Assembly (NCBI GenBank): GCA_947645965.1
Contig: CANSES010000013.1
Coordinates: 1-26,370, forward strand
Direction of reading: 5' to 3'
DNA from: an uncultured Enterorhabdus sp.
Lineage (GTDB): Bacteria; Actinomycetota; Coriobacteriia; Coriobacteriales; Eggerthellaceae
Length of the DNA stretch: 26,370 nucleotides
Position numbers and translations under genes: made by a program
Shown here: positions 19,664 to 25,339 of the stretch, in pieces
Layout of the letters: every line of letters starts with the position of its first letter
Numbering within the stretch: position 1 is the first letter of the stretch
Notes under the pieces: model-generated
What the model saw: the letters and a program-made list of their open reading frames with translations, nothing else
Told to the model about the DNA's origin: nothing
The model's database searches: none

Positions 19664-20605
19664 ATGGATATGTTCATTGAGATTCTGAAGGCGTTCTTCA
19701 TCGGTGTGGTGGAGGGCATTACCGAGTGGCTGCCCATCTCCTCCACGGGCCACATGATCCTCGTGGACGAGTTCGTGCAGCTGTCTGTGTCGCCCGAGTT
19801 CCTCGAGCTGTTTTTGGTCGTCATTCAACTGGGTGCCATCATGGCCGTGCTCATCCTGTACTTCCACAAGCTGAACCCCTTCTCGCCGCGCAAGACGGCG
19901 CCCGAGAAGCGCGGCACCTGGCGGCTGTGGGGCATGGTGGCCATCGGCTGCATTCCCGCGGCGGCCATCGGCCTTACCCTGGACGACTTTTTCAACGAGT
20001 ACTTCTACAACGCCTGGACGGTGGCCGTGGCGCTCATCGTGTACGGCGTGGTGTTCATCCTGCTAGAGCGCCGCAATCGTCGGCGCGAGGCAGCTTACCT
20101 GGCCTCCCGCCAGCCCCGCGGTGCCCACGAGCGCGCCCTCGAAGTGGGCCCGGGCAGCGATGGTGACGACGCCGAGGCCGCCCTGTTCCGCGTGCGCACG
20201 GTGGATGAGATCGACTGGAAGACGGCGCTGAAGATCGGCTGCTTCCAGATGCTCGCCATCATCCCCGGCACCTCCCGTTCCGGCTCCACCATCATCGGCG
20301 GCATGCTCTGCGGCTGCTCGCGCACGGCAGCGGCCGAGTTCACGTTCTTCCTGGCTATTCCCGTCATGTTCGGCTGGGGCGTGCTGAAGCTGATCAAGTA
20401 CATCCTGGCCGTGGGCCTGGCCATGACCGCCACCGAGATCGCCGTGCTGGTGGTGGGCATTCTCACGGCATTCGTGGTGTCGGTCATCTCCATCAAGTTC
20501 CTCATGGGCTACATCAAGAAGAACGACTTCACCGCTTTCGGCGTCTACCGCATCATCGTGGGCGTCGTGGTGCTGGCCTACTTCGGCGTGAAGGTGCTGC
20601 TGTAG
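19664..20605 (+). CDS. uppP: Undecaprenyl-diphosphatase UppP (BacA)
   Basis: Membrane phosphatase that turns undecaprenyl diphosphate into the monophosphate carrier used for peptidoglycan and other wall glycans; overproduction is known to give bacitracin tolerance. The 313 residues carry both family motifs: EGITEWLPISSTGH (residues 17-30, catalytic Glu17/Glu21, Ser27 region and His30) and PGTSRSGSTI with Arg205. Seven or eight membrane helices are visible. The protein is some 40 residues longer than usual (about 265-280) because of a charged cytoplasmic insert near 127-177 (RRNRRREAAYLASRQPRG and an Asp/Glu stretch). It is a single-gene unit with a strong terminator. The mDAP dehydrogenase in the same window also serves peptidoglycan. 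Confidence 0.95.
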   Translation: MDMFIEILKAFFIGVVEGITEWLPISSTGHMILVDEFVQLSVSPEFLELFLVVIQLGAIMAVLILYFHKLNPFSPRKTAPEKRGTWRLWGMVAIGCIPAAAIGLTLDDFFNEYFYNAWTVAVALIVYGVVFILLERRNRRREAAYLASRQPRGAHERALEVGPGSDGDDAEAALFRVRTVDEIDWKTALKIGCFQMLAIIPGTSRSGSTIIGGMLCGCSRTAAAEFTFFLAIPVMFGWGVLKLIKYILAVGLAMTATEIAVLVVGILTAFVVSVISIKFLMGYIKKNDFTAFGVYRIIVGVVVLAYFGVKVLL

Positions 20606-20634
20606 GCGGTCGGCCGCAGAACAAGGCTCTCTCG

Positions 20635-20664
20635 AGGCACCCTTCATGAGAGGGTGCCTTTTTT
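20635..20664 (+). terminator. Rho-independent terminator of uppP
   Basis: AGGCACCCT (20635-20643) and AGGGTGCCT (20651-20659) form a perfect 9-bp stem with a 7-base loop, followed by six T residues. It lies 30 bases after the uppP stop and just before the promoter of the toxin-antitoxin pair. Confidence 0.93.
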
Positions 20665-20666
20665 GT

Positions 20667-20698
20667 TATACTTGGCACTTGGTACCAAGCGCTTGGTA
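20667..20698 (+). promoter_or_regulatory. Promoter and nested palindromic operator of the AbrB-MNT/HEPN pair
   Basis: TATACT (20667-20672) is a near-consensus -10 box. Directly after it are two overlapping perfect palindromes, CTTGGTACCAAG (20678-20689) and TACCAAGCGCTTGGTA (20683-20698), built from repeated CTTGG/CCAAG half-sites; another CTTGG is at 20671-20675. The second palindrome ends two bases before the ribosome site AGGAGG (20700-20705). A protein bound here would block transcription start, as expected for self-repression by the AbrB-type domain encoded next. Confidence 0.7.
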
Positions 20699-20709
20699 GA
20701 GGAGGCATG

Positions 20710-21351
20710 ATGGGTGAGACGGCGAGAATCGAACCGCAGCGTATTCGCATTTCGAGTAAGCGGCAGATCACCATTCCCTCGAAGGCCTATAAGGATATGG
20801 GTTTCAAGGAGTACGCTTGGATTGAGCAAACTGACGAGGGGCTGCTCATCAAGCCGCTGTCGGTGGACGATGAGGACATCTCGCTCTCGGTTTTGAAGAA
20901 GCTGGTGGCCGAGGGCTACGAGGGCGAGGCGCTAGTCGAGCGCTATGCTGCCGTGTGTCCCCCGGTCATTCGCTTCGAAGACGCGAAACGGGATAGTGTT
21001 GTTGGCGAGAAGGCTGTGGCGCTTCCGGTTCCCGTGGCCGCAGATCGTGAGGGGGAGCGCGCGCGGGTGTTCGACGCCGTGGCGCAGGAGTGCGCGCGTT
21101 TCGCCGCCATCACGAAGGGCTATGCATTCGGCTCGTTCGCCCGGGGGGATTTCACCGAGGAGAGCGATGTGGATGTTCGCCTGGAATACGACAAGGCGGC
21201 CCCGTTTACCTTGTTCGAGGTGTCCCAGTTCCAGAAGCATCTTGAGCGAGCGTGCGGGCGCTCGGTGGATGTGATCACGGCCAAGGGCGTCAAGAACCCC
21301 AACTTGGCCGCCGCGATCGAGCGGGAGAAGGTGCTGGTCTATGAGCGCTAA
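20710..21351 (+). CDS. MntA-like nucleotidyltransferase antitoxin fused to an AbrB/MazE DNA-binding domain
   Basis: Predicted antitoxin of a type VII (HEPN-MNT) toxin-antitoxin pair. Residues about 6-50 form a swapped-hairpin AbrB/SpoVT/MazE domain (IRISSKRQITIPSKAYKDMGF). A helical linker (about 55-110) joins a minimal nucleotidyltransferase domain (about 115-213) with the exact GSx10DxD motif: Gly141-Ser142, Asp153 and Asp155, plus a third acidic residue, Asp187 in SVDVIT. In characterised MntA, this domain adds AMP to a Tyr of the HEPN toxin to neutralise it. Standalone MntA is about 100-140 residues, so the DNA-binding fusion is an addition. ATG 20710 is preferred over ATG 20707 because AGGAGG is 4 rather than 1 base upstream. 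It overlaps the toxin gene by 11 bases. Confidence 0.88.
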   Translation: MGETARIEPQRIRISSKRQITIPSKAYKDMGFKEYAWIEQTDEGLLIKPLSVDDEDISLSVLKKLVAEGYEGEALVERYAAVCPPVIRFEDAKRDSVVGEKAVALPVPVAADREGERARVFDAVAQECARFAAITKGYAFGSFARGDFTEESDVDVRLEYDKAAPFTLFEVSQFQKHLERACGRSVDVITAKGVKNPNLAAAIEREKVLVYER

Positions 21352-21730
21352 GGCCACCGATCTTGCGCGCGTGCAGGAGATGTGCGACCTCATCGTGGAG
21401 ACCCAGGGGCAGATCGAGCGCCTCGGCATTACCGAGCAGCGTTTCAAGAGCCCGGCCACAGATGCCGATCACCTGTTCTCGGAGGCCATTATGGGCCGTG
21501 TGCTTCGCGTCACGGAGGAGGCCGGATCGCTGAGCGACGAGGCGCTGGAACACTACGATTTCGAGCGCCGAGCCATAAAAGGCGTGCGCAACCGCCTGGC
21601 CCATGCCTACGGCGACGTGGACGCCGATGTCATCTGGGATGTGGTGCAAGAGGATTTCCCCAAGCTGCTCGAAGGCTGCCACGCCTACTGCGATCACCAC
21701 GGCCTGGAACTGGAGGTGTCGGATACCTGA
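21341..21730 (+). CDS. HEPN-domain toxin, HepT-like RNase
   Basis: Toxin partner of the preceding antitoxin. The 129-residue helical protein has the HEPN active-site motif Rx4HxY exactly: Arg83, His88 and Tyr90 in RNRLAHAYGDVD. In the HepT/MntA system (type VII) this Tyr is the residue that the MNT partner modifies with AMP, and R/H cleave RNA. The length fits HepT (about 110-140). The start ATG lies inside the 3' end of the antitoxin gene, with GGAGAAGG upstream, so the two are coupled and the antitoxin is made first. It is otherwise an orphan unit between uppP and the membrane LuxR gene, with no phage or transposon genes around. RNA target unknown. Confidence 0.88.
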   Translation: MSAKATDLARVQEMCDLIVETQGQIERLGITEQRFKSPATDADHLFSEAIMGRVLRVTEEAGSLSDEALEHYDFERRAIKGVRNRLAHAYGDVDADVIWDVVQEDFPKLLEGCHAYCDHHGLELEVSDT

Positions 21731-21838
21731 TTGTCACTGACATTGAATTGAGATGGCACTGCGGGTGGCCAAGTCTGCTTTTCGCTGCGCTTTGAACCGA
21801 TCGATCCGATATTCCACCTTGAGAATCACCGGGTCGAT

Positions 21839-21855
21839 GCCAGTGCTATACTGGC
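21839..21855 (+). promoter_or_regulatory. Promoter with inverted repeat upstream of the membrane LuxR gene
   Basis: TATACT (21847-21852) is a good -10 box, and GCCAGT-GCTAT-ACTGGC forms a perfect 6+6 inverted repeat across it (21839-21855). Protein binding there would hide the promoter. A ribosome site GGAGGGAG is at about 21868-21875, before ATG 21884. Confidence 0.5.
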
Positions 21856-21883
21856 GGAGGTTTTATGGGAGGGAGAGGGCGGT

Positions 21884-23440
21884 ATGGAACGGGTGAGCGG
21901 CGAGACGTTGTTGGCGGTGGCGGGGTACGGGTGCTCGCTCGCACTCAGCGCGCTGTCGTTTTGGAGTCCGTTGTCGCTGGTTCCCTCGGCGGTGTCTCAG
22001 GAGGCGCCGAGCTTCTACTTTCTGGTCCACTTCGGCCTGGTGCTGAGCTTTGCCATGGTGGTCATCGGTCATTTCGGCGATGGGGCGCGCGTGCCGCGGG
22101 TGCTGTTCGCAGCTACCTTCGTACTGCTGGTCACGGGATTTGCCCTGTCGGCCAACAGTTTGGGCGGTGCTTTCGATCTACCTGTGGCCGTGCTGTCGAG
22201 CGGGGCTTTGTGCACGGGGCTGGGGTCGGGTTTCGCGCTCATGTGCTGGATGCTCGTGTTCGAACGCTTCGCTCTCCGGCGTGCCTGGATGGTCATGGTG
22301 ACGGGCTCGGTGTTTGCTGCCGTGCCCACCCTGACGATCTCTTTCTTGCAGACGATCAATCCGCTCTCGTTTTCGTCGCTCGTGCTGATTCTCCTTCTGC
22401 TCAGCCTGGTGTTTCTGGTGCTGGCCATGCAGGGAGGCGGGACGGGCTCAGCGGGAAGCGCCGCGCCGCCCGCAGAGGCGCGGGGATCGGCGCCCCCGCT
22501 TCGGGAGCCGACCGCTCCCGATGGTGCTCCGTCGGCAGCGCTGCGCCAGGTGGGTTCCCATTTCGGACTGGCCCTGGCTTGCATCGTGGTGCTGGCGTTG
22601 TTCCAGCCTCTTCTGGACGCTTCGGGCTTGAACGACGGGCTCTCGTCCTGGGGTAAGACGCTGCTTTCCCAGGGCGGCAACATCGTCGGCGCCCTGGCGA
22701 TGCTGGCCGTGGGGCGGGCGACCCAGTGGCGCATCGATGTGCCGCGCATCTTCCTCTTCGTGACGCCGGTCTTCGCCACGGTCTGTCTGTTCTTCCCCTT
22801 CGTGAGCGAGCGCTACTGGTTCATCTTCTCGTTCGTGAGCATGTTGCTGTTCTCGGTGCTGTCCCTGGGCGTCATGCTGAGCTGCCTGCAATTTGCTTCG
22901 AAGAAAACGGCGCCGCTTCTGCTTACCTACGGCGTACTGGGATTCTGCCTCTATGCGCCGGGCCTGATCGGCATGGCGGCGGGCCAGGTGACTCACCAGC
23001 TATTCGGCTCGTCGAAGTTGGTGCTGGCTGTGGCTCTGCTTCTGATAGTGGGCGTCTGCGTGGTCCTGGCGCTGCGCATCGGTCAGCGCCTTCTGAATGG
23101 AATGAGCGCCGCCCATCCGCGTGACCCTCTGTCGCCGTCGAATGCCAGCGACCGGCGCGCCGCCAACGAAGGGGCTCCCTCGCTCGACGCATCTGCGGGC
23201 CTTGAGGCGGCTTGCGCTGCATTGGGGGAGCGCTTCAACCTGACGGCTCGCGAGAGGGAGATCCTCGCGATGCTCGCCCATGGGCGCAACGTGCCCTTCA
23301 TTGCCGAGGCGCTCGGGCTGTCTTCCCACACGGTGCGCGGCTATGTGAAATCGCTGTACGCGCGCCTCGATGTGCATTCGCGCCAAGAGCTCATCGACCT
23401 CGTTGAGCAACGGTTACCTTTGGCCAATTTCAACGAATAA
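21884..23440 (+). CDS. Multi-TM membrane regulator with C-terminal LuxR HTH (Eggerthellaceae type)
   Basis: A 518-residue protein. Residues about 5-405 contain some 10-12 hydrophobic segments arranged like a shortened MFS transporter, split by a cytoplasmic Pro/Ala-rich loop near 185-220. After a polar linker, residues about 453-510 are a LuxR/GerE helix-turn-helix (LTAREREILAMLAHGRN, FIAEALGLSSHTVRGYVKSLYARL). Proteins of this build are numerous in Eggerthellaceae, typically next to Tat-exported flavin reductases, and are taken to sense a small molecule at the membrane and activate the neighbour. Here the flavoprotein gene starts 165 bases downstream. The start ATG 21884 has a purine-rich GGGAGGGAG site; ATG 21865 is in another frame. 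Confidence 0.9.
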   Translation: MERVSGETLLAVAGYGCSLALSALSFWSPLSLVPSAVSQEAPSFYFLVHFGLVLSFAMVVIGHFGDGARVPRVLFAATFVLLVTGFALSANSLGGAFDLPVAVLSSGALCTGLGSGFALMCWMLVFERFALRRAWMVMVTGSVFAAVPTLTISFLQTINPLSFSSLVLILLLLSLVFLVLAMQGGGTGSAGSAAPPAEARGSAPPLREPTAPDGAPSAALRQVGSHFGLALACIVVLALFQPLLDASGLNDGLSSWGKTLLSQGGNIVGALAMLAVGRATQWRIDVPRIFLFVTPVFATVCLFFPFVSERYWFIFSFVSMLLFSVLSLGVMLSCLQFASKKTAPLLLTYGVLGFCLYAPGLIGMAAGQVTHQLFGSSKLVLAVALLLIVGVCVVLALRIGQRLLNGMSAAHPRDPLSPSNASDRRAANEGAPSLDASAGLEAACAALGERFNLTAREREILAMLAHGRNVPFIAEALGLSSHTVRGYVKSLYARLDVHSRQELIDLVEQRLPLANFNE

Positions 23441-23463
23441 CCGCTTGAACAGGCAATTTGCGA

Positions 23464-23581
23464 CCCCCTACTTTGAGGGGTGGGAAGGCTTTCGCTCAAA
23501 CGCCCCATGGTGGGGCTACCGTCGCCGGGAAGCGCCTCGCTAGCATGGGGCCGTCTCATTCGCTGAAAATCCGTTCAGCGA
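23464..23581 (+). promoter_or_regulatory. Regulatory region between the membrane LuxR and flavoprotein genes
   Basis: Three dyads lie in this 165-base gap: CCCCC-N8-GGGG (23464-23480), GCCCC-ATGGT-GGGGC (23502-23516), and a perfect 7-bp hairpin TCGCTGA with TCAGCGA (23560-23581) in the likely leader. TAGCAT (23541-23546) fits a -10 box with a start near 23553, which places the second dyad at about -44, the usual site for LuxR-type activators. AAGGAGGG is the ribosome site at 23590-23597. Confidence 0.45.
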
Positions 23582-23605
23582 GATGGTCGTAAGGAGGGAA
23601 TTTCC

Positions 23606-25339
23606 ATGGAACTGAATCGACGCGACTTTCTCAAGGGTGCCGTGGTGACGGGTGCGCTGGCCGCTGGCGGCGCGTTGGCGGGCTGCGCGCCGGCTGCGAA
23701 GGAGGGCAACGCCGCGAACAGCGGCGCAGCGGCGCCGGCCGAGGGTGCCGCTTCCGAGTACCTGACGGCTGCATCGGCCACGCAGAAATGGGCCTTCGAG
23801 ATTCCGCCCGAGCCCATCACCGACATCGCCGAGACGGTGGAGGCCGACGTGGTCGTGGTCGGTGCCGGCACGGCGGGCCTCGTGACGGCCTACTCGGCGC
23901 TCCAGCAGGGGCTGGACGTCGTGGCGGTGACGGCGTCTTCCATCCCCATCTCTCGCGGCGGCTCGAACAACGCCATCTATTCTAAGCAGATGGAGAAGGA
24001 GGGCTTTCCGCGCCAGGATCCCTATTTCATCCTGAAGGAGATGGCCGAGAACTCCAACAACGTGGACCAGCGCAAGTGGTACCACTATTACCACAACAGC
24101 GAGGAGGCCATGAACTGGATGATCGACATCATGGAGGGCGCGGGCTTCCAGACGGGCATCGAGCGCACCTCGAACATGGTGGAGGACAGCCTGTTCTACC
24201 AGGCCCCCGCGGCCCACGGTTGGATCAACACCGAGAACCAGGCGGTAGGCATGACCCAGCCCTTCGTGGTGAACACCCTTTCCGAGAAGATCCAGGCCGA
24301 GGGCGGTCGGGTGCTCTTCAAGAACATCGGCCGCCAGCTGGTGCGCGGTGGCGCCCCCAACGGCACCACGGGCCGCGTGACCGGCATCATCTGCGAGCGC
24401 GAGGACGGCAGCTTCGCCCAGTACAACGGCGCGAAGGCCGTGGTGCTGGCCACGGGCGACTTCTCTTCCAACCGCGACATGATGGCGAAGTACGCGCCCC
24501 AGGCGCTGGATATGGTGGCCGATGAGGTATACGACACCGTGGACTACGACAAGGAGTTCGTGTTCGGCGGCCTGTTCCCCGGCGACGGCCAGCGCATGGG
24601 GCTGTGGGTCGGCGCGGCGTGGCAGAAGTCCTTCCCCTGCGCGCCCATGGGCGCCACCATCAACGCGGGCACCACGCCGAACGCCTACCAGAACTTCTGG
24701 GGCCTTTTGGTGAACCGCGACGGTCAGCGCTTCATGAACGAGTACTGCTCGAACATCTTGGGTGGTCGCGTTCAAACGCTGCAGCCGGGCGGCGAGTCCT
24801 TCGCGCTGTGGGATGTGAACTACTCGAATTTGCCCGACTGGTATCCGGGGCAGGGCGGCTACGGCATTCTGGAGAAGCTCACGCCGGAGCAGGTGGTGGA
24901 GCTGTGGGAGGATTCCGTGGCCTCGGGCGCCTATATCAAGGGCGACACCCTGGAAGAGGTGCTCGAGCAGGTGGGTCTGCCGGTGGAAGAGACCATGGCC
25001 ACCATCGAGCGCTACAACGAACTGTGCGAGGCCAAGGAGGACACCGACTTCTTCAAGCGTCCCGAGAATCTGTTCCCCATCAAGACGCCGCCCTTCTATG
25101 CGAACAAAGCGGCCGGCACGCCGGGCTTGCTGACCATTCTGGGCGGCCTGCGCACCGACGATAACATGCGGGTGTGCGACGCGGACGACCATCCCATCGA
25201 GGGCCTGTACAACGTGGGCACCATGGTGGGCGACTTCTACTCCGGTTTCTACACCTTCCAGGTTGAGGGCGTGAACTATGGCGCGTGCTGTCTCACCTTC
25301 GGATACCTGACGGGCAAGTTCATCGCTGAGAACGAGTAG
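23606..25339 (+). CDS. Tat-exported FAD-dependent reductase (fumarate reductase flavoprotein-like), lipoprotein
   Basis: Extracytoplasmic flavoenzyme of 577 residues, FAD_binding_2 family. The N-terminus has a twin-arginine signal (Arg5-Arg6 in NRRDFLKG) followed by LAGC, a lipobox with Cys27, so it is probably a Tat-exported lipoprotein. The FAD site is VVVVGAGTAGLVTAYSA (GxGxxG at 86-91), and ISRGGSNNAIYS and the C-terminal VGDFYSGFYTFQVEGVNYGACCLTFGYLTGKF are family features. No haem or FMN-binding domain is fused, so electrons must come from a separate donor not encoded in the window. Such enzymes reduce small unsaturated or hydroxylated organic acids in anaerobic respiration; the substrate here is unknown. 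The adjacent membrane LuxR is the likely activator. A terminator closes the unit. Confidence 0.9.
   Translation: MELNRRDFLKGAVVTGALAAGGALAGCAPAAKEGNAANSGAAAPAEGAASEYLTAASATQKWAFEIPPEPITDIAETVEADVVVVGAGTAGLVTAYSALQQGLDVVAVTASSIPISRGGSNNAIYSKQMEKEGFPRQDPYFILKEMAENSNNVDQRKWYHYYHNSEEAMNWMIDIMEGAGFQTGIERTSNMVEDSLFYQAPAAHGWINTENQAVGMTQPFVVNTLSEKIQAEGGRVLFKNIGRQLVRGGAPNGTTGRVTGIICEREDGSFAQYNGAKAVVLATGDFSSNRDMMAKYAPQALDMVADEVYDTVDYDKEFVFGGLFPGDGQRMGLWVGAAWQKSFPCAPMGATINAGTTPNAYQNFWGLLVNRDGQRFMNEYCSNILGGRVQTLQPGGESFALWDVNYSNLPDWYPGQGGYGILEKLTPEQVVELWEDSVASGAYIKGDTLEEVLEQVGLPVEETMATIERYNELCEAKEDTDFFKRPENLFPIKTPPFYANKAAGTPGLLTILGGLRTDDNMRVCDADDHPIEGLYNVGTMVGDFYSGFYTFQVEGVNYGACCLTFGYLTGKFIAENE

Follow-up and report, generated by a model that had tools for sequence, protein, structure and literature searches.

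Analysis of a 26,370-nucleotide stretch of DNA (hereafter, the window) from an uncultured Enterorhabdus sp. (contig CANSES010000013.1) revealed two overlapping genes on the forward strand, which we read as a toxin-antitoxin pair of HEPN/MNT class I (type VII); the antitoxin appears to carry a fused DNA-binding domain. The first open reading frame (ORF1, 20710 to 21351; 213 amino acids [aa]) encodes an AbrB-MNT fusion protein, and the second (ORF2, 21341 to 21730; 129 aa) encodes a HepT-like HEPN protein, a predicted RNase toxin; both lie where the original prediction had placed them, and they overlap by 11 nucleotides (nt). An AGGAGG ribosome-binding site, recognized by eye at 20700-20705, is 1 nt from a first ATG (20707, giving 214 aa) and 4 nt from a second; since this spacing is better at the second ATG, 20710 is the likelier start, and the database copy P0001 starts there as well. 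We interpret this operon, with a probability of roughly 0.8, as encoding an RNase toxin (HEPN) together with a bifunctional antitoxin, the MNT half of which would neutralize the toxin and the AbrB half of which would repress transcription through a CTTGG/CCAAG repeat.

The MNT (MntA-like nucleotidyltransferase) domain spans 21040 to 21348 and carries the catalytic motif GSx10DxD in exact form as GSFARGDFTEESDVD (21130 to 21174; residues 142-156 of the 214-aa form, whose numbering we use for ORF1); ORF1 also holds IRISSKRQITIPSK. ORF1 scored above the Pfam cut-offs for both Polbeta (45.8 bits) and NTP_transf_2 (43.4 bits), and a fold comparison of residues 110-214 retrieved the MNT fold; when aligned by fold, the window MNT was 11-22% identical to antitoxin chains of HEPN-MNT pairs. 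Moreover, G142, S143, both Asp residues of DxD, and a third Asp (188) are invariant in 21 aligned fusion proteins. ORF2 carries the Rx4HxY motif as RNRLAHAY (21587 to 21610; R83, H88, and Y90) and scored 40.7 bits against Pfam HepT-like, above the cut-off. Across 48 aligned HEPN sequences, window included, R83, N84, and H88 never vary, and Y90 hardly does (retained in at least 90%). HEPN proteins of this class have a four-helix fold; the ORF2 model is all-helical (predicted local distance difference test [pLDDT] score of 88.5), and its four best Foldseek matches are HepT chains, with weak E values (0.18-0.26). The HEPN-MNT pairing originally proposed is thus confirmed, with both motifs exact and both proteins above Pfam cut-offs. 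The pair shows the features that define class I HEPN/MNT in the available portion of Yao 2020 (PMC7641770), i.e., adjoining genes of PF01934 (for which PF08780 may stand) and PF01909, here PF01934 and PF01909 above gathering scores, with GSx10DxD in MNT and Rx4HxY in HEPN. The same portion of that source describes a single small MNT domain of <150 aa for this class; ORF1 is instead a 213-aa protein with AbrB, helices, and linker.

Upstream of the MNT domain, ORF1 comprises a predicted AbrB/MazE-like DNA-binding domain (20740 to 20862; residues 12-52), a two-helix stretch in common with unfused AbrB antitoxins (20863 to 20961; residues 53-85), and a variable linker (20962 to 21039), for which mean pairwise identity is 21% and model pLDDT is <50 at residues 88-109. 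By tblastn, the N-terminus matched three plasmid proteins annotated as AbrB/MazE/SpoVT (E 1e-6 to 4e-6), and the UniRef name of one relative (P0009) begins with "SpoVT-AbrB". Six of the 13 members of the AbrB alignment had weak MazE matches (best E 0.005); the window protein itself had no match to Pfam MazE. With regard to the swapped-hairpin fold of this family, the modelled N-terminus has strand-strand-helix-strand-strand order (pLDDT 72-81 by block). In a PDB sequence search with the AbrB alignment, a designed repeat protein was the single match, which we judged spurious. Together, the tblastn matches and the strand order lend support to the two-domain antitoxin of the original prediction; from one sequence alone, the AbrB label would be weaker. 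The AbrB half is presumably a dimer, like other members of its family.

Relatives of the pair and of its AbrB module

A HEPN profile search of 396 genomes of one bacterial class (Coriobacteriia), the set to which all genome counts below refer, gave 63 matches in 52 genomes. All 17 top matches (E of 6e-50 or below) come after an MNT that has an extra N-terminal domain (AbrB in 4, RHH-like in 12, and RelB in 1), and among all 63, such a domain was found on 34 partners (4 AbrB, 13 RHH-like, 15 RelB, 1 other RHH-like, and 1 HTH_3); the other 29 matches lie at contig ends, have no MNT that we could find, or are plain or unclear. Domains were typed by reading for L090, L098, L103, and L138 and by Pfam scan for L143, in which HTH_3 passes its cut-off; of the RelB N-termini, 4/4 scanned exceed the Pfam cut-off and 3/3 scanned exceed that of TIGR02384, and the RHH label is based on the sequence pattern together with sub-threshold Pfam scores. 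The AbrB-MNT fusion next to a HEPN gene recurs at four further loci, and this recurrence, taken with the Pfam scores above cut-offs, places the pair beyond chance. In the protein databases, AbrB and MNT motifs occurred together in 36 (the window's own included) of the best 120 of 132 matches, with Adlercreutzia, Parvibacter, and Eggerthellaceae as the named carriers among the matches listed. The proposal that the fusion may be a distinct subtype is too narrow; the variant is a modular group and not an AbrB subtype, since RHH-like, RelB, HTH_3, and Fic plus HTH modules are fused to such MNTs as well.

The Fic case (L011:3092-4871) lies outside the 63 matches: a single reading frame of 470 aa holds DUF4172, Fic, DeoR-type HTH, and MNT domains, and the gene after it encodes the same kind of HEPN protein, with RNRLAHAY; one predicted antitoxin would there hold two different AMP-transferring domains. 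In two metagenome proteins (P0029 and P0045), AbrB-MNT or AbrB is continuous with a domain of the ABC-transporter (PF00005) or AIRS (PF00586) family, which probably reflects assembly joins or insertion points. A single-sequence scan of genome contigs found no relative; the alignment-based scan did find relatives. None was confirmed in viral contigs (one scan) or phage records, and 11 plasmid records had partial matches to one or other domain.

We built a HEPN tree of 59 rows, leaving out loci that were partial, broken, fused, or unpaired (L096, L099, L104, L121, L124, L128, L134, L136, L140, and L141) or already present under other numbers (L001-L005 and L008-L010); its 20 "plain" rows include L109, L127, and L131, whose MNT the gap rule left unpaired. 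A 21-row clade (14 RHH-like, 5 AbrB including the window, 1 RelB, and 1 Fic) received support of 98/94, and 97/94 in the joint tree. The best HEPN tree requires 11 label changes, the minimum for 7 labels being 6. Both the HEPN and joint trees suggested that the AbrB fusion arose twice, which we do not claim, given that a single clade was not rejected (approximately unbiased test, p 0.30 for HEPN, 0.53 for MNT, and 0.465 for the joint tree). For RelB, monophyly of 13 rows (without L132 and L133) was rejected in the HEPN tree (p 0.027), and monophyly of 11 rows was not rejected in the joint tree (p 0.30).

The AbrB module itself extends beyond MNT. Eight unfused proteins (121-132 aa) are 51-67% identical to the module of the window, and an AbrB search gave 32 matches in 29 genomes, the best 21 being 4 AbrB-MNT, 1 decayed locus (G216), and 16 that we call AbrB-ParE; in 3 of the 11 weaker matches, AbrB is joined to a degenerate MNT, and the other 8 are outside the operator comparison described below. 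At the 16 loci (L146-L152, L154-L156, L158, L160, L162, L163, L165, and L166), an unfused AbrB gene precedes a small gene, overlapping it in 15 cases and lying 71 nt apart in L152. The small genes are ParE toxins by Pfam in 10/10 scanned, and the other six were called by resemblance (L147, L150, L152, L154, L155, and L158). The module is homologous in both pair types; thus, the same domain serves as a type II antitoxin and as the front half of an enzymatic antitoxin. Where both pairs occur, cross-regulation is possible.

The fusion could alternatively be a promoter-bound antitoxin without enzymatic action, its MNT half holding HEPN in a complex in the manner of type II systems; in keeping with this, the AbrB module is homologous to that of a type II-like antitoxin, DxD has lost its first Asp in an RHH-type relative (P0062), and the available text of PMC7641770 holds formation of the Shewanella MntA/HepT hetero-octamer to be important for neutralization. 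We nonetheless consider sequestration unlikely, because the catalytic residues (G142, S143, the DxD Asps, and Asp188) are invariant in the 21 fusions, Tyr90 is retained in at least 90% of HEPN sequences, and three AbrB-MNT proteins that have lost DxD (L170, L171, and L173, the last also numbered L012) occur in genomes without a HEPN match. In these three, the AbrB motif and some operator half-sites persist, as if the protein had turned into a plain regulator.

A further decayed locus informs the direction of the pair. In G216 (L124/L164), the AbrB motif is altered, no MNT part was found, the HEPN frame is broken, and the operator word is intact. A broken HEPN frame without MNT is as expected if HEPN is harmful, and it argues against the early proposal of 2009 (PMC2701414, in the part available) that MNT is the toxin and HEPN the antitoxin. 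Accessible sections of later papers also report HEPN toxicity for same-motif pairs (PMC4621449 and PMC7641770) and a gene order in which the upstream MNT suits the antitoxin role (PMC3710099), such that reversed roles are highly improbable.

Operator-like repeats upstream of the fused genes

By eye, a -10-like box, TATACT, lies at 20667 to 20672 on the forward strand. An operator-like repeat (20671 to 20698) overlaps its end and stops just short of the ribosome-binding site, with half-sites CTTGG, CTTGG, CCAAG, and CTTGG at 20671, 20678, 20685, and 20692, i.e., in 7-bp steps; it contains CTTGGTACCAAG (20678-20689) and ACCAAGCGCTTGGT (20684-20697). Arrangements of these half-sites were found upstream of 5/5 AbrB-MNT and 16/16 AbrB-ParE genes and upstream of none of the 15 RHH-MNT, 13 RelB-MNT, and 10 plain MNT genes (0/38 in total), the plain loci being a selection whose upstream stretch was anchored at the GS motif and so includes coding sequence. 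Shuffling gave class means of at most 1.21 loci under a looser AbrB criterion (two half-sites) and at most 0.02 under a stricter one. RHH-MNT genes have a different upstream repeat, GTATTGCAATTGCAATAC-like, in 13/15 (L006 and L092 being missed) and in no other class, and RelB-MNT genes have a third, GTCATACA-like, in 13/13, also present at 3/15 RHH loci and in no other class. As the CTTGG/CCAAG repeat tracks AbrB across MNT and ParE loci, the operator goes with the DNA-binding domain and not with the toxin. Read from sequence, the MNT-HEPN core is stable in this clade, and DNA-binding domain and operator change together.

Two exact words were also searched across whole genomes. Taken from the window, the 14-mer ACCAAGCGCTTGGT occurs at 21 sites, in 20 genomes (reversed word, 1 genome). 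Eleven of these sites are directly upstream of AbrB genes (3 AbrB-MNT, 1 decayed [G216], and 7 AbrB-ParE); of the 29 genomes that gave an AbrB match, 11 have such a site. For ACAATGTCATACAG, there are 10 sites in 10 genomes (reversed word, 1 genome); seven are at RelB-MNT genes known from the HEPN profile search, and one further RelB-MNT gene (L197) was revealed by this word alone. No RelB-MNT gene was seen alongside two other copies (L202 and L204, position 1501).

Autorepression of the operon by the fusion is thus a well-supported prediction, in that the promoter of the fusion gene holds an operator-like repeat whose occurrence among relatives tracks the DNA-binding domain, and this evidence favors the earlier idea of an antitoxin that doubles as operon repressor. 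Such a role is not new in principle: in the available text of PMC4621449, the single-domain MntA of Shewanella, SO_3165, binds its own promoter with weak autorepression, and deletion of the gene pair raises promoter activity 1.6-fold. Alternatively, the AbrB domain could merely dimerize or stabilize an antitoxin that neutralizes as in ordinary type VII systems, having no part in operon regulation. Its family scores are indeed weak, and single-domain MNTs function without AbrB (PMC7641770, available part); yet the repeat accompanies AbrB across two toxin types (5/5 and 16/16 versus 0/38), and just over half of the exact 14-mer sites (11/21) lie just upstream of AbrB genes, in 11/29 AbrB-match genomes, which makes a purely stabilizing role quite unlikely.

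Proposed function of the operon

We propose that free HEPN would cut RNA and that the C-terminal MNT would neutralize it, most likely by transferring AMP onto Tyr90, by analogy with same-motif pairs in the accessible part of PMC7641770. The AbrB half would bind the 7-bp-spaced repeat, which covers the expected transcription start, and would block the promoter and repress the operon; the flexible linker would connect the two functions and might be a site of proteolysis. AbrB-MNT would then be an AbrB-ParE-type antitoxin whose ParE-binding tail is in effect swapped for an enzyme. The protein is a real and conserved antitoxin of a modular clade, probably with two functions.

A broader scheme, which we offer only tentatively, is that type VII antitoxins act as plug-ins in Coriobacteriia, MNT-HEPN cores having repeatedly adopted a type II DNA-binding half with its operator. 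The promoter might then respond to whether the toxin is modified: HEPN without AMP would bind the MNT half and alter the hold of the fusion on DNA, AMPylated HEPN would be released and repression would return, a covalent reaction thereby replacing conditional cooperativity.

Several observations weigh against the bifunctional antitoxin that we favor. The family models score low: ORF1 reached 40.7 of 60 bits against NCBIfam MntA_antitoxin (NF047752), and ORF2 reached 27.2 of 60 bits against HepT_toxin (NF047751), both missing the cut-off; by these scores, the pair is related to, and not an equivalog of, those models. The N-terminus reached 17.3 bits against TIGR01439 (cut-off 28.3), the unfused relative P0051 reached 24.5 bits against the same model, PF04014 gave 15.8 and 14.0 of 24.7 bits in relatives, and the fold list, obtained with residues 110-214 and dominated by MNT, held no AbrB structure. 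MNT and toxin are not always coupled, as P0062 illustrates, and the link is not strict at L197:1524-2018 either, where a RelB-MNT with intact motif has no HEPN gene. L197 could be an orphan antitoxin; the frame that follows is, as we take it, glutamine-synthetase-like. A consensus promoter scan of 20560-21900 found no promoter-like site and no sigma-70 consensus. Finally, the operator motifs were picked after reading the same sequences, which is why the exact words were searched genome-wide, and 10 of the 21 ACCAAGCGCTTGGT sites lie away from AbrB genes. Eight of these stray sites are in genomes without an AbrB match, and the others are ~3 kb from a degenerate AbrB-MNT (G345 and G372); we presume three to be peptide-deformylase-like and one to be acetyltransferase-like coding sequence. 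Reading frames were unusable as a test of the stray words, a frame of at least 90 aa being present at 9/10 stray sites and also at 10/11 AbrB-promoter sites.

Genomic context and comparison with known systems

Upstream of the pair, a terminator-like stem-loop (20634 to 20660, forward strand; 11-pair stem and T-rich tail) lies 3' of a gene that we take to be undecaprenyl-diphosphatase-like; the stretch holds four such stem-loops versus 1.0 expected. Downstream (21884-25339), a presumably LuxR-type membrane regulator-like gene adjoins what we read as a Tat-signal flavoprotein reductase-like gene, and both are retained in Adlercreutzia mucosicola (L001). The window is syntenic with this species, with four flanking proteins matching at near-full coverage and 85-98% identity. 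Within the pair, HEPN is 91% identical versus only 66% for AbrB-MNT, a divergence that is partly due to the variable linker. The distance from the phosphatase-like gene to the pair is ~0.9 kb in A. mucosicola (L001:3102-4001) versus ~0.1 kb in the window (20605-20707), pointing to an insertion or deletion beside the operon. At L002, L003, and L004, the window's flanking proteins had no tblastn match (E 1e-5) inside the 4-kb flanks; the pair therefore sits elsewhere in those genomes and seems mobile.

The window resembles HepT/MntA type VII class I systems (Shewanella SO_3166/SO_3165; Thermococcus CL1; Legionella 8xeh/8xeo; and structures 7ae2-7ae9, which we take to be Aphanizomenon HepT/MntA) in its MNT-first order with an overlapping HEPN gene, in GSx10DxD and Rx4HxY, in the MNT fold, and in PF01909/PF01934. 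It differs from them in that MntA is described, in the available text of PMC4621449 and PMC7641770, as a single domain of <150 aa without a predicted DNA-binding domain, whereas the window encodes a 213-aa AbrB fusion behind an operator-like repeat. The promoter binding reported for Shewanella came without a recognizable domain (PMC4621449, in the same available text). Here, the DNA-binding domain is covalently attached, the operator is readable in the sequence, and both change together across relatives, so that transcriptional control in type VII systems becomes directly testable.

Other Coriobacteriia fusions next to HEPN genes (RelB-MNT, RHH-like-MNT, HTH_3-MNT, and Fic-HTH-MNT) have the same MNT-HEPN core; they differ in their N-terminal modules, which are unrelated to AbrB, and the RHH and RelB types have upstream repeats of their own. 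In the open-licence full texts searched, as far as these were available, we found no description of MNT fused to AbrB, RHH, RelB, or Fic; the name of one PDB entry, Cmr1-MntA, hints at other kinds of MNT fusion. The 2009 survey (PMC2701414, available part) describes HEPN-RHH fusions without MNT, the paREP1 proteins of Thermoproteales, and guesses at a DNA-binding component in trans; these too are DNA-binding fusions in the HEPN/MNT world, but unlike in the window, the domain is on HEPN and there is no MNT partner. The closest comparison outside type VII is with type II AbrB-ParE pairs, a combination that the accessible part of PMC6929052 reports from Geobacillus as potentially a new composite. 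The window shares with these pairs a homologous AbrB module, the two-helix extension, and an operator of the CTTGG/CCAAG kind, and differs from them in having an MNT enzyme in place of the C-terminal tail and a HEPN toxin in place of ParE. Our finding thereby links type II and type VII systems, in contrast to the 2009 network, in which, as far as its available text goes, HEPN-MNT is a strictly unique pair.
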